A DNA stretch of 64,000 nucleotides, from contig UCMT01000008.1 in NCBI GenBank assembly GCA_900473795.1, positions 124,001 through 188,000 on the forward strand, written 5' to 3'. A program made the translations under genes and the position numbers. A model generated the notes under the pieces. The model did not search any database and was not told where the DNA came from. It saw only the letters and a list, made by a program, of their open reading frames with translations. This DNA is from Hyphomicrobiales bacterium. GTDB lineage: Bacteria; Pseudomonadota; Alphaproteobacteria; Rhizobiales; Rhizobiaceae. Shown here one piece after another: positions 11,292 through 17,686 of the stretch; positions within the stretch are counted from its first letter, which is position 1; each line of letters begins with the position of its first letter.

Positions 11292-11349
11292 CGCAGCCGT
11301 CAGGCGGCGTTTCAATTGACAGGGTCAGGCGGAGCGCCTAATCATCAGC

Positions 11350-11700
11350 CATTGGATGGTTCCCGGGCCGGCGTTTCGGTTCGGGAGTAAATGGGAATGT
11401 GAAGGGATGGACCCAAGCCGGGCATTCTTATCGCAGCCGACCCCGCGACTGTAGAACGGTCAGGGTTCGCCATCCGGGAAAACCGACGTTCCGGACAGGC
11501 TGCGTGGTGCGGCTTGCGGAATGGCTGGTCCAACCGGAAAAGCCACTGGGGTGGCATCATGATCAGCCGGGGCCGGACGCCTCTATGTCTACGAATCGTC
11601 CACCTCTTCGTGATGTCGAAAAACTTCGGGAAGGCGAGGCGGACCCGTTCGGGCCTTTGACGAGGTCCGTGACGCCGTGAGCCAGGAGACCTGCCACCCT
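11350..11700 (+). promoter_or_regulatory. Cobalamin (adenosylcobalamin) riboswitch
   Basis: The conserved blocks occur in the right order: AAATGGGAATGTGAAGG near 11390, GACCCCGCGACTGTAG at 11438-11453, AAGCCACTGGGG near 11543, CGGGAAGGCG near 11630, and the B12 box GCCAGGAGACCTGCC at 11681-11695. It lies in the 563-base gap between cobQ and cobP and should repress the cobP-cobW-cobN-cobO operon when coenzyme B12 is plentiful. The segment between the CCACTGGGG and GGGAAGGCG blocks (about 80 bases) is longer than in compact examples. The 5' boundary is approximate. Confidence 0.93.
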
Positions 11701-11722
11701 CAAGGGCATCGTGCCCGATCCA

Positions 11723-13447: not shown

Positions 13448-13477
13448 GGGTATTTTGACCGGGCGAGCTAATTTCCC

Positions 13478-13640
13478 CTCCCCAACCCCTCCCCACAAGG
13501 GGGAGAGGCTTAGGCTGTGTTTGCCGCGACCGTTTTGCCCCATGGTTGCTTCGCTGGCTCGCTCCCTGAATGAGTTTTTTTGGCTGAGCAGGAAGGCGCG
13601 GCAGATTAGCCCCGCCCCCTTGTGGGGAGGGGTTGGGGAG
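13478..13640. repeat. Palindromic intergenic repeat between cobW and cobN
   Basis: The two outer arms, 13478-13503 and 13615-13640, are exact 26-base reverse complements starting CTCCCCAACCCCTCCCC. Partial complementarity continues inward, leaving a 163-base element that fills most of the cobW-cobN gap. It resembles the RIME-type palindromic elements scattered in rhizobial chromosomes. The outer arms end just 33 bases before the cobN start. Confidence 0.85.
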
Positions 13641-13672
13641 AGGATCTTTCTCTCCGGGAAGCAGGTAATGAC

Positions 13673-16600
13673 ATGCATCTCCTCCTAGCCCAGAAAGGCA
13701 CGATCTCGGACGGCGAGGAAGCGATCGACCTCGGTCAGTCGCCGGCCGATATCCTGTTCCTGTCCGCCGCCGATACCGAGCTTTCGGCCATCGCCGCCGC
13801 GCACCGGATACGGCAAGGCAAATCCAGCCTGCGGGTCGCAAGCCTTCTGACCCTGAAGCACCCGATGTCGGTCGATACCTATGTCGAACGCACGGCACGG
13901 CATGCACGGCTGATCATCGTTCGTCCGCTCGGCGGCGCCAGCTATTTCCAGTATGTCCTGGAGGCGTTGCATGCCGCTGCCGTCACGCAGAAATTCCAGA
14001 TCGCCGTCCTGCCGGGCCATGACAAGCCGGATCCGGGCCTCGAGCCGTTTTCGACGGTTTCCGCCGAAGACCGCAACCGGATGTGGGCCTATTTCACCGA
14101 GGGCGGCGCCGACAATATGATGCGGCTGCTCGCCTATGCCGAGGCGCTGATCGGCGGCACCGAGAAGCCCGAGCCGGCCGCGCCGTTGCTCAAGGCCGGT
14201 GTCTGGTGGCCGGGCGAAGGTGTCATCGGCGTTGAGGCGTGGAAGAAAGCGGTGGGGTTCGGTGTGCGCCCGTTACCCCCCTTTGTCAGCTTTGCTGACA
14301 TCTCCCCCTCAAGGGGGGAGATTGACCCGCGGCAACCGAACCAGCCCAAAGACGGCGCGGAAGGGTTTGAAAGGCGAGAACGTCCCCCAGCGATCTCCCC
14401 CCTTGAGGGGAAGATGCCCGGCAGGGCAGAGGGGGGTAACCCCTCCCTGCACTCGGAAGGCCGGACCTCGGGGCCAATCGTCGCCCTCTGCTTCTACCGC
14501 GCCCTCGTCCAAAGCGGGGAAACCAGGCCGGTGGAAGCCCTGATAGAGGCGCTCGCCGCCGAGGGAATGACCGTTCTGCCGGTCTTCGTTTCGAGCCTCA
14601 AGGACGCCGTGTCCATCGGCACGCTGGAAGCGATCTTTGGCGAGGCGCCGCCGGACGTGGTCATGAATGCCACTGGCTTTGCCGTCTCGGCGCCGGGCGC
14701 CGATCGTCAGCCGACGGTGCTGGAATTCACCGACGCGCCGGTCCTGCAGGTCATCTTCTCAGGCTCGACCCGGAAGGCGTGGGAGGCCTCGCCCCAGGGG
14801 CTGATGGCGCGCGATCTGGCGATGAACGTGGCGCTGCCCGAGGTGGATGGCCGTATCCTGTCACGCGCAGTCTCGTTCAAGGCGGCCGCCGTCTATGATC
14901 CGGATGTCGAGGCGAATATCGTCGGCCATGAGCCTCTCGCCGACCGTATCGCCTTCGCAGTGAAATTGGCGGCCAACTGGGTGAAGCTGCGCAAGACCGC
15001 GCCGCGCGAGCGGCGCGTGGCGATCATCATGGCGAACTATCCGAATCGTGACGGACGGCTCGGCAACGGTGTAGGATTGGATACGCCGGCCGGGACGATC
15101 GAGGTCATGAACGCGATGGCCGCCTCGGGCTACGCGATTGATGATGTCCCGGCTGATGGTGACGCGCTGATCCGGCATCTCATGGATGGGCCGACCAATT
15201 CGGCGCGTGTCGATTGCGATATCCGCGAAACGATTTCGCTGAATCAATACAATGCCTTCTTCGCGTCTCTTCCGGTTCAGATTCAGAATCAGGTCATCGA
15301 CAGATGGGGTGCGCCCGAGGCCGATCCGTTCTTCCGCGATGGCCGGTTCGCCCTGCCGCTTGCCCGCTTCGGCGAGACCCTGGTCGGCATCCAGCCGGCG
15401 CGTGGCTACAATATCGATCCGAAGGAAACCTACCATTCGCCGGACCTCGTGCCACCGCACGGCTATCTCGCCTTCTATGCTTTCCTGCGGCAGGACTACG
15501 GCGCCCACGCCATCATCCATATGGGCAAACACGGCAATCTCGAATGGCTGCCGGGCAAGGCGCTGGCGCTATCCGAGGCCTGCTTTCCCGAAGCCGTCTT
15601 CGGGCCGCTGCCGCATCTCTATCCGTTCATCGTCAACGATCCGGGCGAGGGCACGCAGGCCAAGCGCCGCACCAGCGCCGTGATCATCGACCATCTGACG
15701 CCGCCGCTGACCCGGGCCGAATCCTATGGGCCGCTCAAGGGTCTCGAGGCGCTGGTCGACGAATATTACGACGCGGCCGGCGGCGATCCCCGCCGCCTGC
15801 GATTCTTGAGCAAGCAGATCCTCGATCTCGTGCGCGACATCGGCCTCGATCAGGACGCCGGCATTGCGCGTACGGATGCCGAGGACAAGGCGCTGGAAAA
15901 GCTCGATGCCTATCTCTGCGACCTCAAGGAACTGCAGATCCGCGACGGCCTGCACGTCTTCGGCATTGCGCCCGAAGGCCGGCTTCTGACCGATCTGACG
16001 GTGGCGCTGGCCCGCGTGCCGCGCGGTCAGGGCGAGGGCGGCGATCAGAGCCTGCAACGGGCGATAGCCAAGGATGCGGGGCTGGTCAATGTCGCTGCAC
16101 CCCCCTCTGTCCTGCCGGAGGGGGGTATTCCTTCCTCCTCGACAAGAATAAACGAAAGACACTTCGACCCTCTCGACTGTGTCCTTTCCGACCCCTGGGC
16201 GGGTCCGAAGCCTGGCATGCTGGCTGAGCTCAGCGAGGTGCCGTGGCGCACCGCGGGCGACACGGTCGAGCGCATCGAGATTCTGGCTGCAGCGCTGGTC
16301 TCGGCCGAACTCCATTGCCCGGAAAACTGGACTGCAACGCAAGCGGTCCTGCAGGACATCGAAACGCGCCTGAAACCGTCGATCGTTCAATCCGGCCCCG
16401 CCGAGATCACGGCGCTGATGAGGGGTCTCGACGGCCGCTTCGTTGCGCCCGGTCCTTCCGGTGCGCCGACGCGCGGCCGGCCGGATGTCTTGCCCACAGG
16501 CCGCAATTTCTATTCAGTCGACAGCCGCGCCGTGCCGACGCCGGCGGCGTTCGAGCTCGGCAAGAAGTCTGCCGAGCTCTTGATCCGCCGCTACCTGCAG

Positions 16601-17686
16601 GACCACGGCGAATGGCCGACCTCGTTTGGCCTGACGGCCTGGGGCACGTCGAACATGCGTACCGGCGGTGACGATATTGCCCAGGCCTTGGCGCTGATCG
16701 GTGCCAGGCCGACCTGGGATATGATGTCGCGGCGGGTGACGGGCTACGAGATCGTGCCGCTTGCCGTGCTGGGTCGTCCGCGTGTCGACGTGACCCTGCG
16801 CATCTCCGGCTTCTTCCGCGATGCGTTCCCGGATCAGATCGCGCTTTTCGACAATGCGATCCGGGCCATCGGGGCGCTTGAGGAAGACGATGCCGACAAT
16901 ATGATCGCCGCACGGATGCGGGCGGAAACCATCCGGCTCGAAGCGGCCGGCATTGCGCCGAAGGAGGCCGCGCGGCGCGCCTCCTACCGCGTGTTCGGCG
17001 CAAAGCCCGGTGCCTATGGCGCGGGGCTGCAGGCCTTGATGGATGAAAAGGGCTGGGAAAGCCGCGCGGACCTGGCCGATGCCTATCTTACCTGGGGAAG
17101 CTACGCCTATGGCGCTGGCGAGGACGGCAAGGCCGAGCGCGGGTTGCTCGAAGCACGGCTGAAGACGGTCGAGGCCGTGGTCCAGAACCAGGACAATCGC
17201 GAGCACGACCTGCTCGACAGCGACGATTACTATCAGTTCGAAGGCGGCATGAGCCTAGCCGTCGAGCAAGCGAGCGGAACCCGCCCGTCGATCTACCACA
17301 ACGATCATTCCCGCCCGGAAAAACCGGTGATCCGCTCGCTGGAGGAAGAGATCGGCCGGGTGGTGCGTGGCCGCGTCGTCAATCCGAAATGGATCGAGGG
17401 GGTCATGCGCCACGGCTACAAGGGGGCGTTCGAGATCGCCGCGACGGTCGACTACATGTTCGCCTTCGCGGCAACGACCGGGGCCGTGCGCAGCCACCAT
17501 TTCGAGGCGGTCTACCAGGCCTATGTCATGGATGAACGCGTCCGCCAGTTCATGGAAGACAAGAACCCGGCGGCGTTGCGCGAGATGACCGACAAACTGC
17601 TGGAGGCGATCGACCGCGGTCTCTGGTCGCCGCGTTCCAATTCGGCGCGTTTCGAACTGCAAGGTCGCTCAGCGGCTGCGGAGTAG
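13673..17686 (+). CDS. cobN: Cobaltochelatase, CobN subunit, with in-frame repeat insertions
   Basis: CobN is the large subunit of the ATP-dependent CobNST chelatase that puts cobalt into hydrogenobyrinic acid a,c-diamide. The start is ATG 13673 (MHLLLAQKG); the upstream in-frame extension is repeat DNA. The product is 1337 residues, about 60 more than the roughly 1275 expected for aerobic-pathway CobN. Two stretches explain the excess: residues ~200-256 are encoded by a palindromic repeat (14273-14439 and its edge), and a shorter one follows VNVAAPPSVLPEGG (around 16099-16160). Elsewhere conserved blocks are intact, for example GKHGNLEWLPGKALALSEAC, NGVGLDTPAGT and FDPLDC. The frame is preserved through both insertions, so the protein is probably functional. 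Confidence 0.95.
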   Translation: MHLLLAQKGTISDGEEAIDLGQSPADILFLSAADTELSAIAAAHRIRQGKSSLRVASLLTLKHPMSVDTYVERTARHARLIIVRPLGGASYFQYVLEALHAAAVTQKFQIAVLPGHDKPDPGLEPFSTVSAEDRNRMWAYFTEGGADNMMRLLAYAEALIGGTEKPEPAAPLLKAGVWWPGEGVIGVEAWKKAVGFGVRPLPPFVSFADISPSRGEIDPRQPNQPKDGAEGFERRERPPAISPLEGKMPGRAEGGNPSLHSEGRTSGPIVALCFYRALVQSGETRPVEALIEALAAEGMTVLPVFVSSLKDAVSIGTLEAIFGEAPPDVVMNATGFAVSAPGADRQPTVLEFTDAPVLQVIFSGSTRKAWEASPQGLMARDLAMNVALPEVDGRILSRAVSFKAAAVYDPDVEANIVGHEPLADRIAFAVKLAANWVKLRKTAPRERRVAIIMANYPNRDGRLGNGVGLDTPAGTIEVMNAMAASGYAIDDVPADGDALIRHLMDGPTNSARVDCDIRETISLNQYNAFFASLPVQIQNQVIDRWGAPEADPFFRDGRFALPLARFGETLVGIQPARGYNIDPKETYHSPDLVPPHGYLAFYAFLRQDYGAHAIIHMGKHGNLEWLPGKALALSEACFPEAVFGPLPHLYPFIVNDPGEGTQAKRRTSAVIIDHLTPPLTRAESYGPLKGLEALVDEYYDAAGGDPRRLRFLSKQILDLVRDIGLDQDAGIARTDAEDKALEKLDAYLCDLKELQIRDGLHVFGIAPEGRLLTDLTVALARVPRGQGEGGDQSLQRAIAKDAGLVNVAAPPSVLPEGGIPSSSTRINERHFDPLDCVLSDPWAGPKPGMLAELSEVPWRTAGDTVERIEILAAALVSAELHCPENWTATQAVLQDIETRLKPSIVQSGPAEITALMRGLDGRFVAPGPSGAPTRGRPDVLPTGRNFYSVDSRAVPTPAAFELGKKSAELLIRRYLQDHGEWPTSFGLTAWGTSNMRTGGDDIAQALALIGARPTWDMMSRRVTGYEIVPLAVLGRPRVDVTLRISGFFRDAFPDQIALFDNAIRAIGALEEDDADNMIAARMRAETIRLEAAGIAPKEAARRASYRVFGAKPGAYGAGLQALMDEKGWESRADLADAYLTWGSYAYGAGEDGKAERGLLEARLKTVEAVVQNQDNREHDLLDSDDYYQFEGGMSLAVEQASGTRPSIYHNDHSRPEKPVIRSLEEEIGRVVRGRVVNPKWIEGVMRHGYKGAFEIAATVDYMFAFAATTGAVRSHHFEAVYQAYVMDERVRQFMEDKNPAALREMTDKLLEAIDRGLWSPRSNSARFELQGRSAAAE
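14273..14439. repeat. Palindromic repeat inserted in frame inside cobN
   Basis: The outer arms begin TTACCCCCCT and, reading the other strand from 14439, TTACCCCCCT again, and both continue to a shared TCAAGGGGGGAGAT. The roughly 50-base arms differ mainly in a short variable block, leaving a 167-base imperfect palindrome. The translation of this part (PPFVSFADISPSRGEIDPRQ and on) is Pro/Arg/Gly-rich and unlike CobN. The reading frame stays open. It parallels the Rickettsia palindromic elements known to sit inside coding genes. Confidence 0.85.
16099..16126. repeat. Short related palindromic fragment inside cobN
   Basis: ACCCCCC and GGGGGGT pair across a 14-base middle (TCTGTCCTGCCGGA) which resembles the variable block of the larger repeat at 14273-14439. 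The encoded PPSVLPEGGIPSSSTRINER interrupts an otherwise conserved CobN region just before FDPLDC. This looks like a truncated copy of the same repeat family. Confidence 0.6.

Follow-up and report, generated by a model that had tools for sequence, protein, structure and literature searches.

Our results suggested that a dispersed palindrome of REP-like type, F1 for short, has entered the cobaltochelatase gene cobN at two loops or linkers where the protein tolerates it, and that the copies that are in frame and free of stops survive as a translated passenger loop; we put the probability of this reading at about 0.82. On the sequence side, it draws on the dispersed copies, two recurrent sites, presence and absence of the insert, open frames, weak constraint on the peptide, and conservation and coupling within the palindrome arms. 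In the proposed mechanism, F1 (two double-hairpin units in inverted orientation, forming a dimer) would insert into such loops or linkers, and only copies keeping the frame and giving no stop would survive, which is why F1 is read as a passenger loop. The arms would then be kept alike by homogenisation between copies and between both arms, through gene conversion or template switching. We consider such homogenisation the most likely source of the arm likeness, with selection on the hairpin itself possibly adding to it. Note that the names F1 and F2 for palindrome families were coined in this analysis.

The window, that is, the whole stretch of 64,000 nucleotides analysed, corresponds to positions 124001-188000 of contig C34 in a genome of 6.39 Mb and 101 contigs. 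The cobN gene, encoding the cobaltochelatase subunit CobN, lies on the + strand at 13673..17686 (1337 codons plus stop), an open frame with no inner stop and one Pfam match (PF02514, residues 138-1323); CobN residues 1-187 and 266-1333 align with the solved CobN 9uk9. Within this frame lies an imperfect palindrome (14274-14438), built as a dimer from two double-hairpin units of 49 and 46 nt. The original prediction, which had placed a palindrome of 167 bases with arms of about 50 bases at 14273..14439 and had the frame open through it, was nearly exact in position and right about the frame. The left unit (14274..14322, + strand, 49 nt) consists of TACCCCCCTTTG, a small hairpin (GTCAGC-TTT-GCTGAC) and then a large hairpin (ATCTCCCCC-TCAAG-GGGGGAGAT), and encodes PPFVSFADISPSRGEI. 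The right, inverted unit (14393..14438, + strand, 46 nt) encodes ISPLEGKMPGRAEGG, and the 70-nt spacer between the two (14323..14392, + strand) drifts among species. The palindrome tool returned arms at 14299-14322/14393-14416 (24 nt, 96% complementary) and outer arms at 14272-14285/14427-14440 (14 nt, 93% complementary). The RNA fold of 14261-14450 reached -101.2 kcal/mol, against -75.6 (sd 4.6) for dinucleotide shuffles (z -5.6), and 0 of 200 such shuffles matched it. Across the 48 distinct units matched in CobN, the general F1 unit is ACCCCCCTCTG, a small hairpin, and then ATCTCCCCC-NCAAG-GGGGGAGAT; units are arranged head-head and tail-tail. Rfam gave no match at the cobN palindrome, and over the whole window its one match at gathering threshold was a cobalamin riboswitch.

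The cobN gene was found in 26 of 26 genomes of the genus, and 24 loci were examined, G022 and G025 being left out as split by contig ends. A single intact frame was present in 21 of the 24, and the three broken genes belong to G015 (78% completeness), G017 (87%), where the break adjoins site 1, and G023 (99%). Two places vary in the alignment of the 21 intact proteins, namely site 1 and, near residue 808, site 2; there the species carry nothing or differing palindrome-derived peptides. In this strain the whole site 1 segment (14261..14464, + strand) comprises about 68 codons, residues 197-264, that are missing in relatives without the insert. The predicted gain of about 56 residues was therefore too low, because variable sequence to the right of the palindrome is also extra. 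This insert is missing in R. herbae DSM 26427 (G006) and Pararhizobium polonicum (G008). At site 2, Rhizobium giardinii (G005) and R. herbae HU44 (G007) carry a full element; in this strain, a second F1 element has collapsed there to a remnant of 29 bp (16099..16127, + strand). The solved CobN 9uk9 (1263 aa) is without either insert, and 7c6o, for which the comparison covers site 1 (two of ten distinct chains viewed), is without the site 1 insert. The added segment is missing in 9uk9 and in many relatives and varies between species. Neither result that would have overturned the original prediction, a segment shared by all relatives as conserved CobN sequence or arms lacking further copies, was obtained.

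In a scan of named genomes, 38 loci were obtained, including those of R. giardinii H152, R. herbae and P. polonicum and, more distantly, of Sinorhizobium/Ensifer, in which CobN shows both sites, some with an insert and some lacking one. Thirty-six of these loci were processed (L110 and L116, at contig ends, were left out) and gave 33 usable frames, one of them truncated (L122); three were dropped: L108 (the broken gene of G023), L118 (the broken gene of G015), and L086, which a position filter missed and whose genome G019 is in the genus set. A family-wide draw gave a cobN match in 101 of 121 genomes, and 49 of its loci were aligned; since these were chosen for good matches or long frames, the insert frequency among them is biased. 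The pooled set held 103 ORFs, all picked as open frames, of which 91 were distinct and one N-truncated. Counting an allele as long when it has at least 20 residues above baseline, with the sites delimited by alignment columns, each site had 38 long alleles among the 91 ORFs, with 27 ORFs long at both sites and 49 at one site or both; these counts are inflated by relatedness because shared inserts partly represent one event. Presence, absence, different families and in-frame collapse were all observed among the alleles. Elsewhere in CobN, runs of at least 20 extra residues occurred at the N-terminus (four, with uncertain start choice) and once at residue 511.

Since both sites also vary in length among palindrome-free alleles, the inserts could have nothing to do with dispersed repeats and reflect ordinary low-complexity loop variation or an artefact of assembly. 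Inverted repeats of 14 bp with at most one mismatch were, however, present in 32 of the 38 long alleles at site 1 and 35 of the 38 at site 2, compared to 2/380 and 11/380 control segments of the same genes, and in none of the 53 shorter alleles at either site. The long alleles lacking one were six at site 1 and three at site 2, including the remnant in this strain. Against this explanation too stand the 30 dispersed clusters described below and the recurrence of the same feature in many separate assemblies, and we regard it as the least probable of all those weighed here.

Several unrelated palindrome families occurred across the two CobN sites: F1 with the peptides ISPLEGEMPGRAEGG/PPSVLPDISPTRGEI, F2 with SPTPPHKGEGL/SPSPLWGGVGEGI, a further family with SSPQRGE/LLPAGEKR, and others such as SPHPEPVEG. 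That such motifs recur in many species and several proteins would fit a useful CobN segment kept by selection at the protein level. Against that, unrelated families occupy the same sites, the coupled residues follow base pairing, the third codon position of the arms is conserved as much as the first and second, and pN/pS was 0.38-1.50 in the CobN inserts (24 comparisons) but 0.07-0.14 in the rest of CobN (17 species pairs). Note that these are uncorrected proportions over at least 20 codons, from overlapping pairs of which some align different palindrome families. A useful peptide is therefore very unlikely, and the encoded insert looks like a passenger under weak constraint.

The conservation of the arms supports this. 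At site 2, in six genomes sharing the same 171-nt segment, the arms diverged by 0.059 per base, compared to 0.405 for the spacer, 0.350 for the flank and 0.362 for cobN third positions, and the arm values by codon position were 0.067, 0.069 and 0.042. At site 1 (seven genomes, arms taken as a whole) the arms gave 0.099, against 0.382 for the spacer, 0.402 for the flanks and 0.329 for third positions. The same was observed in the gene of a di-haem peroxidase in nine genomes, where the arms diverged by 0.074/0.080/0.076 at the three codon positions, the spacer by 0.395/0.467/0.465 and the rest of the gene by 0.119/0.089/0.407. An intergenic element between cobW and cobN behaved likewise, with 0.035 in the arms and 0.507 in the spacer of F2 copies (seven sequences) and 0.071 and 0.477, respectively, in F1 copies (six sequences). 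Arm conservation does not depend on codon position, and what is kept is not the encoded peptide; judging from these comparisons, the conserved part is the hairpin at the nucleic-acid level rather than the added piece of protein.

This pattern is also what would be expected if each copy, although translated, were held by purifying selection on the hairpin for a nucleic-acid function of the host, for example in pausing translation, in processing the mRNA or as the site of a chromosome protein. In its favour, conservation of the arms extends to every codon position in the peroxidase gene and at cobN site 2, is seen for the arms as a whole at site 1, and holds in the intergenic element too. On the other hand, many species have no insert or only a collapsed in-frame remnant, and the same site accepts unrelated palindrome families. 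We consider this explanation possible, although doubtful. Slightly more doubtful still is its fuller form, in which the hairpins would be host-useful parts selected copy by copy, a shared module placed, even inside protein-coding genes, in loops and linkers of unrelated rhizobial proteins, where pairing of DNA or RNA writes the residues and the protein tolerates them.

The pairing within the units was examined in 26 distinct 45-nt units. All small-hairpin cells were paired, with changes on both sides in three of the four pairs, and the covariation score was reached by 0 of 500 shuffles. When the partner was slid by one to three columns, the paired cells fell from 97.9% to 43-69%; this control retains relatedness, which inflates the coupling counts. 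Across all loci (121 distinct units), the first pair of the small hairpin was C-G in 64, T-A in 51, G-C in 5 and mismatched in 1. The consequence is visible in the protein: in the right arm of CobN inserts (n=49) the coupled residues were P..A in 26, S..T in 22 and mixed in one, and in the left arm (n=28) V..D in 21, A..G in seven and mixed in none. Of 43 inserts that have a single loop on each side, left and right, 38 show loop bases complementary to each other, where independence would give 19.3. The residue changes in the arms are thus, to all appearances, coupled as base pairing demands. RNAalifold, run on 30 units of mixed length aligned with MAFFT, reported the large hairpin only and no covariation; it missed the small hairpin because gaps misaligned it, after which the 45-nt units were examined with the structure specified.

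The F1 copies in CobN keep to a preferred frame. At both sites together, 107 of 119 large hairpins read ISPxxGE, and ten left-hand ones read SPPQGGR or similar. Among the 60 right-hand hairpins, 58 read ISPxxGE, one reads SPPLWW, and one, an altered copy with an altered loop, lies in the would-be TGA frame. The insert is presumably translated and the protein made and working, and the insertion loops of CobN would be exposed. Another possibility could be that the hairpin is skipped, by ribosomal bypassing or by removal from the RNA, so that the segment is never translated. Mitochondrial byp elements, inserted hairpins that ribosomes skip, set a precedent, and the hairpin in the coding strand is very stable. 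Skipping, however, would make frame keeping and stop avoidance needless, yet long open frames are present in 21 of the 24 genus loci despite inserts that vary in length and family, and only one of the 60 right-hand hairpins uses the would-be TGA frame. The set of 91 ORFs is by itself no test here, because its members were picked as open frames. We find skipping hard to credit, even more so than a useful peptide.

Next, we turned to copies elsewhere in the genome. The segment 14240-14470 gave 96 blastn pieces (40 of 52 first-look candidates scored), which group into 30 clusters, cobN included; the original prediction had called for a search for other copies, especially inside genes, and some of these do lie inside other genes. 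Pfam matched 10 of the 30 spanning ORFs, and start codons were inspected in eight of those 10. A spanning ORF alone was rejected as proof of an intragenic copy, because this GC-rich genome yields long spurious frames. An in-frame element was counted in four genes: cobN; ftsY, in the A domain before SRP54_N; the di-haem (DHOR) peroxidase gene, directly after the signal peptide; and uvrB, in the C-terminal tail. Left uncounted were an SLT_2 ORF with an ambiguous start, the FdhD, IclR, terminase and Lyase_1 ORFs, which have a plausible start downstream of the element, and an acyl-CoA dehydrogenase ORF, judged by domain position alone. In the A domain of ftsY, an inverted repeat was present in 21 of 25 genus loci, compared to 22 of 250 control segments (G015 was left out, and G017 and G019 gave a truncated stretch).

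The relatives also carry the element in other genes. Twelve regions were chosen by eye from the genus hit lists and 10 ORFs scanned with Pfam, five of which supported an in-frame element: in RibD, inside the reductase domain; in class IV aminotransferases of two genomes; in a carboxyltransferase fusion, between its domains; and in UvrB, in the tail. As for the remaining ORFs, four of the 10 had no Pfam match, and in L252 the element sits at a doubtful N-terminus. Other proteins use other reading frames of the element, such as HLPLKGGD in ftsY and SPPQGGR in uvrB. A tblastn search of plasmids with one insert peptide matched 21 records, with no annotated gene displayed under the match.

F1 is probably mobile and may have moved by transposition. 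A clean pair of empty and filled sites with a target duplication was not found, and the site 1 alleles also differ to the right of the palindrome. A RAYT transposase as the mover has no support in this genome: a search with PF01797 drew a blank here and matched 2 of the 26 genomes of the genus; the search control matched 5 of 14 genomes.

Finally, we compared 58 units from four loci (the two cobN sites, the peroxidase gene and the intergenic element). Units of the same locus and arm in different genomes diverged by 0.085, although a few of these pairs involve copies that were re-inserted or replaced, and units of different loci by 0.111 within one genome and 0.135 between genomes. None of 1000 permutations gave a same-genome value as low as that observed, and this likeness beyond permutation indicates some homogenisation within genomes, which tells against copy-by-copy selection on the hairpin. 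Homogenisation alone, however, would not make orthologous units the closest of all, and their being closer (0.085) than different loci in one genome (0.111) favours such selection. The left small hairpin of the cobN copy speaks on the same side: GTCAGC-TTT-GCTGAC occurs once among the 42 that a script matched in loci of its own genome, where the copy C23, which the script missed, looks alike and likewise reads PPSVSFADI. An identical or nearly identical hairpin stands at site 1 in five further genomes (G019, G004, G002, G005 and G018), in favour of conservation in place. Against this, G007 and G009 carry a different small hairpin at site 1. Loop states mapped on a tree gave a mixed pattern and carry no weight here. 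These comparisons indicate a degree of homogenisation inside genomes, alongside locus identity that is maintained between species.

Palindromic mosaic repeats are familiar from rhizobia as the RIME of Sinorhizobium, which are known as intergenic. The REPs of Bradyrhizobium occupy intergenic regions and 3'-UTRs, as described in the available part of PMC5082802. Rickettsia palindromic elements (RPE), of about 105-150 bp, are dispersed, lie in frame in unrelated conserved genes and are tolerated (PMC2229807, PMC10969869, both in the parts available), and the accessible text of the 2024 review considers a similar process conceivable in other prokaryotes (PMC10969869). F1 shares with RPE the in-frame insertion into unrelated protein-coding genes. 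It differs in sequence source and genus, and in that two sites of one gene, cobN, receive several families. It also retains its arms, at a divergence of 0.059-0.099 per base (third positions: 0.33-0.41), whereas Rickettsia elements lose their repeat identity over time, according to the part of the 2019 paper available (PMC6649704). The parallel with Rickettsia initially drawn therefore holds for a dispersed palindrome in frame, but not for the fate of the arms.

The related premise, that translated palindromes are known mainly from Rickettsia, was too narrow, since intragenic REPs (PMC3733652) and fused MITE frames (PMC2229807) are described elsewhere in the accessible portions of these papers. 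According to the accessible text of the 2013 study, REPs of the GTAG and CGTC super-families are found inside genes of several bacteria, many of them DNA repair genes, as stem-loop units that often form head-head dimers; linkers and loops are suggested as tolerant, and recB of two Xanthomonas was hit by a REP at about the same site (PMC3733652). CGTC REPs have a stem of 8-9 bp beginning with AT pairs and a loop of 4-5 nt in that text (PMC3733652), and the F1 large hairpin, ATCTCCCCC-NCAAG-GGGGGAGAT, fits this stem and loop geometry. Membership was nevertheless rejected, the CGTC/TGTC/CCTC tag with its CCA tail being present at 0 of 165 distinct large hairpins in either orientation. F1 differs from GTAG REPs in that its own genome has no match to the RAYT-type transposase (PF01797). 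As distinct from the present work, no codon-position or covariation analysis was found in the available text of PMC3733652; its supplementary list of intragenic REPs may include rhizobial genes.

The MITEs ERIC, YPAL and Correia/NEMIS are small palindromes fused in frame to genes, several with a terminal TA, with such fused frames reported in enterobacteria and Neisseria (PMC2229807, accessible part). F1 resembles them in its terminal inverted repeats, which in this cobN copy have TA at both ends (TACCCCCC...GGGGGGTA). It differs in its head-head and tail-tail units, which are more like mosaic REPs. In mitochondrial genes of Nematomorpha, coding palindromes are intact while translated, as in F1, and their arms encode conserved protein under amino-acid selection (PMC6649704, available part); the F1 arms, in contrast, lie in segments missing from relatives and are conserved at the nucleotide level. 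Among the literature matches listed, which cover few subscription papers, none described an in-frame palindrome for CobN or for proteins of rhizobia. Translated palindromes as such are thus already known, from Rickettsia and as intragenic REPs; the new part, as far as can be judged from sequence, is the retention of the palindrome in the coding copies. The initial interpretation was right about a dispersed, variable palindrome in frame. Rather than an isolated event, the insertion is at one of two recurrent CobN sites, which several families occupy.

F1 lends itself to the study of translated palindromic repeats in free-living bacteria, the rhizobia, of which many species have been sequenced. 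At the two CobN sites different species carry several families or nothing, which allows gain, decay and frame keeping to be traced in a known enzyme. Unlike in the literature covered, the residues coupled by pairing, the free spacers and the frozen arms separate nucleic-acid from protein constraint. For annotators there is a warning as well: recurring peptides such as ISPLEGEMPGRAEGG or SPSPLWGGVGEG stem from palindromes, not from protein domains.

The space between cobW and cobN is filled by a palindrome (window 13474–13644) that does not belong to F1, the REP-like family present in frame inside cobN, but to a second and distinct family, F2. Its arms are 37 nt long and show 92% complementarity. 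Among the 19 relatives examined, the cobW-cobN gap contained F2 in some, F1 in some, and was empty in some. Note that a cobalamin riboswitch (RF00174, 45 bits) is located upstream of the cobU, cobW and cobN genes, at window 11340–11712. This element is 373 nt long, being lengthened by 178 nt without a displayed match to the RF00174 model, and no inverted repeat of at least 12 nt was found in this unmatched stretch.

In other genera of the family, CobN has open frames of 1664 aa (L226, genome G113) and 1646 aa (L237, genome G066). The first value is an open-frame length with a putative start, since a long stretch precedes the usual one; the G066 protein carries palindrome-derived peptides both at site 1 (residues 197–264 in the CobN of the window) and at site 2 (near residue 808 there). 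Moreover, comparison of two close relatives (L041 in G010 and L064 in G009) revealed an F1 insert at site 1 in one and an in-frame collapse to GAGATGGGGGGTATG in the other, which is probably a recent loss.

F1 was also observed in other enzymes of the relatives. The RibD_C domain of the riboflavin enzyme RibD (ribD, L251:1319–2668, G022) contains an F1 dimer, the frame remaining open and the Pfam match being split into two stretches. Likewise, two class IV aminotransferases (L256 in G007 and L257 in G013) have in-frame F1-derived segments at a similar place, one in one protein and more than one in the other.

As regards the transposase family Y1_Tnp (PF01797), matches within the genus were confined to two genomes, G018 and G025, and each of the five in G018 is listed with one internal TAG.

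Finally, upstream of an FdhD gene in the organism's own genome, the spacer of an F1 dimer (L156, G000:C9:76496–76721) holds an F2-like piece (76611–76653). Mosaic elements therefore occur.
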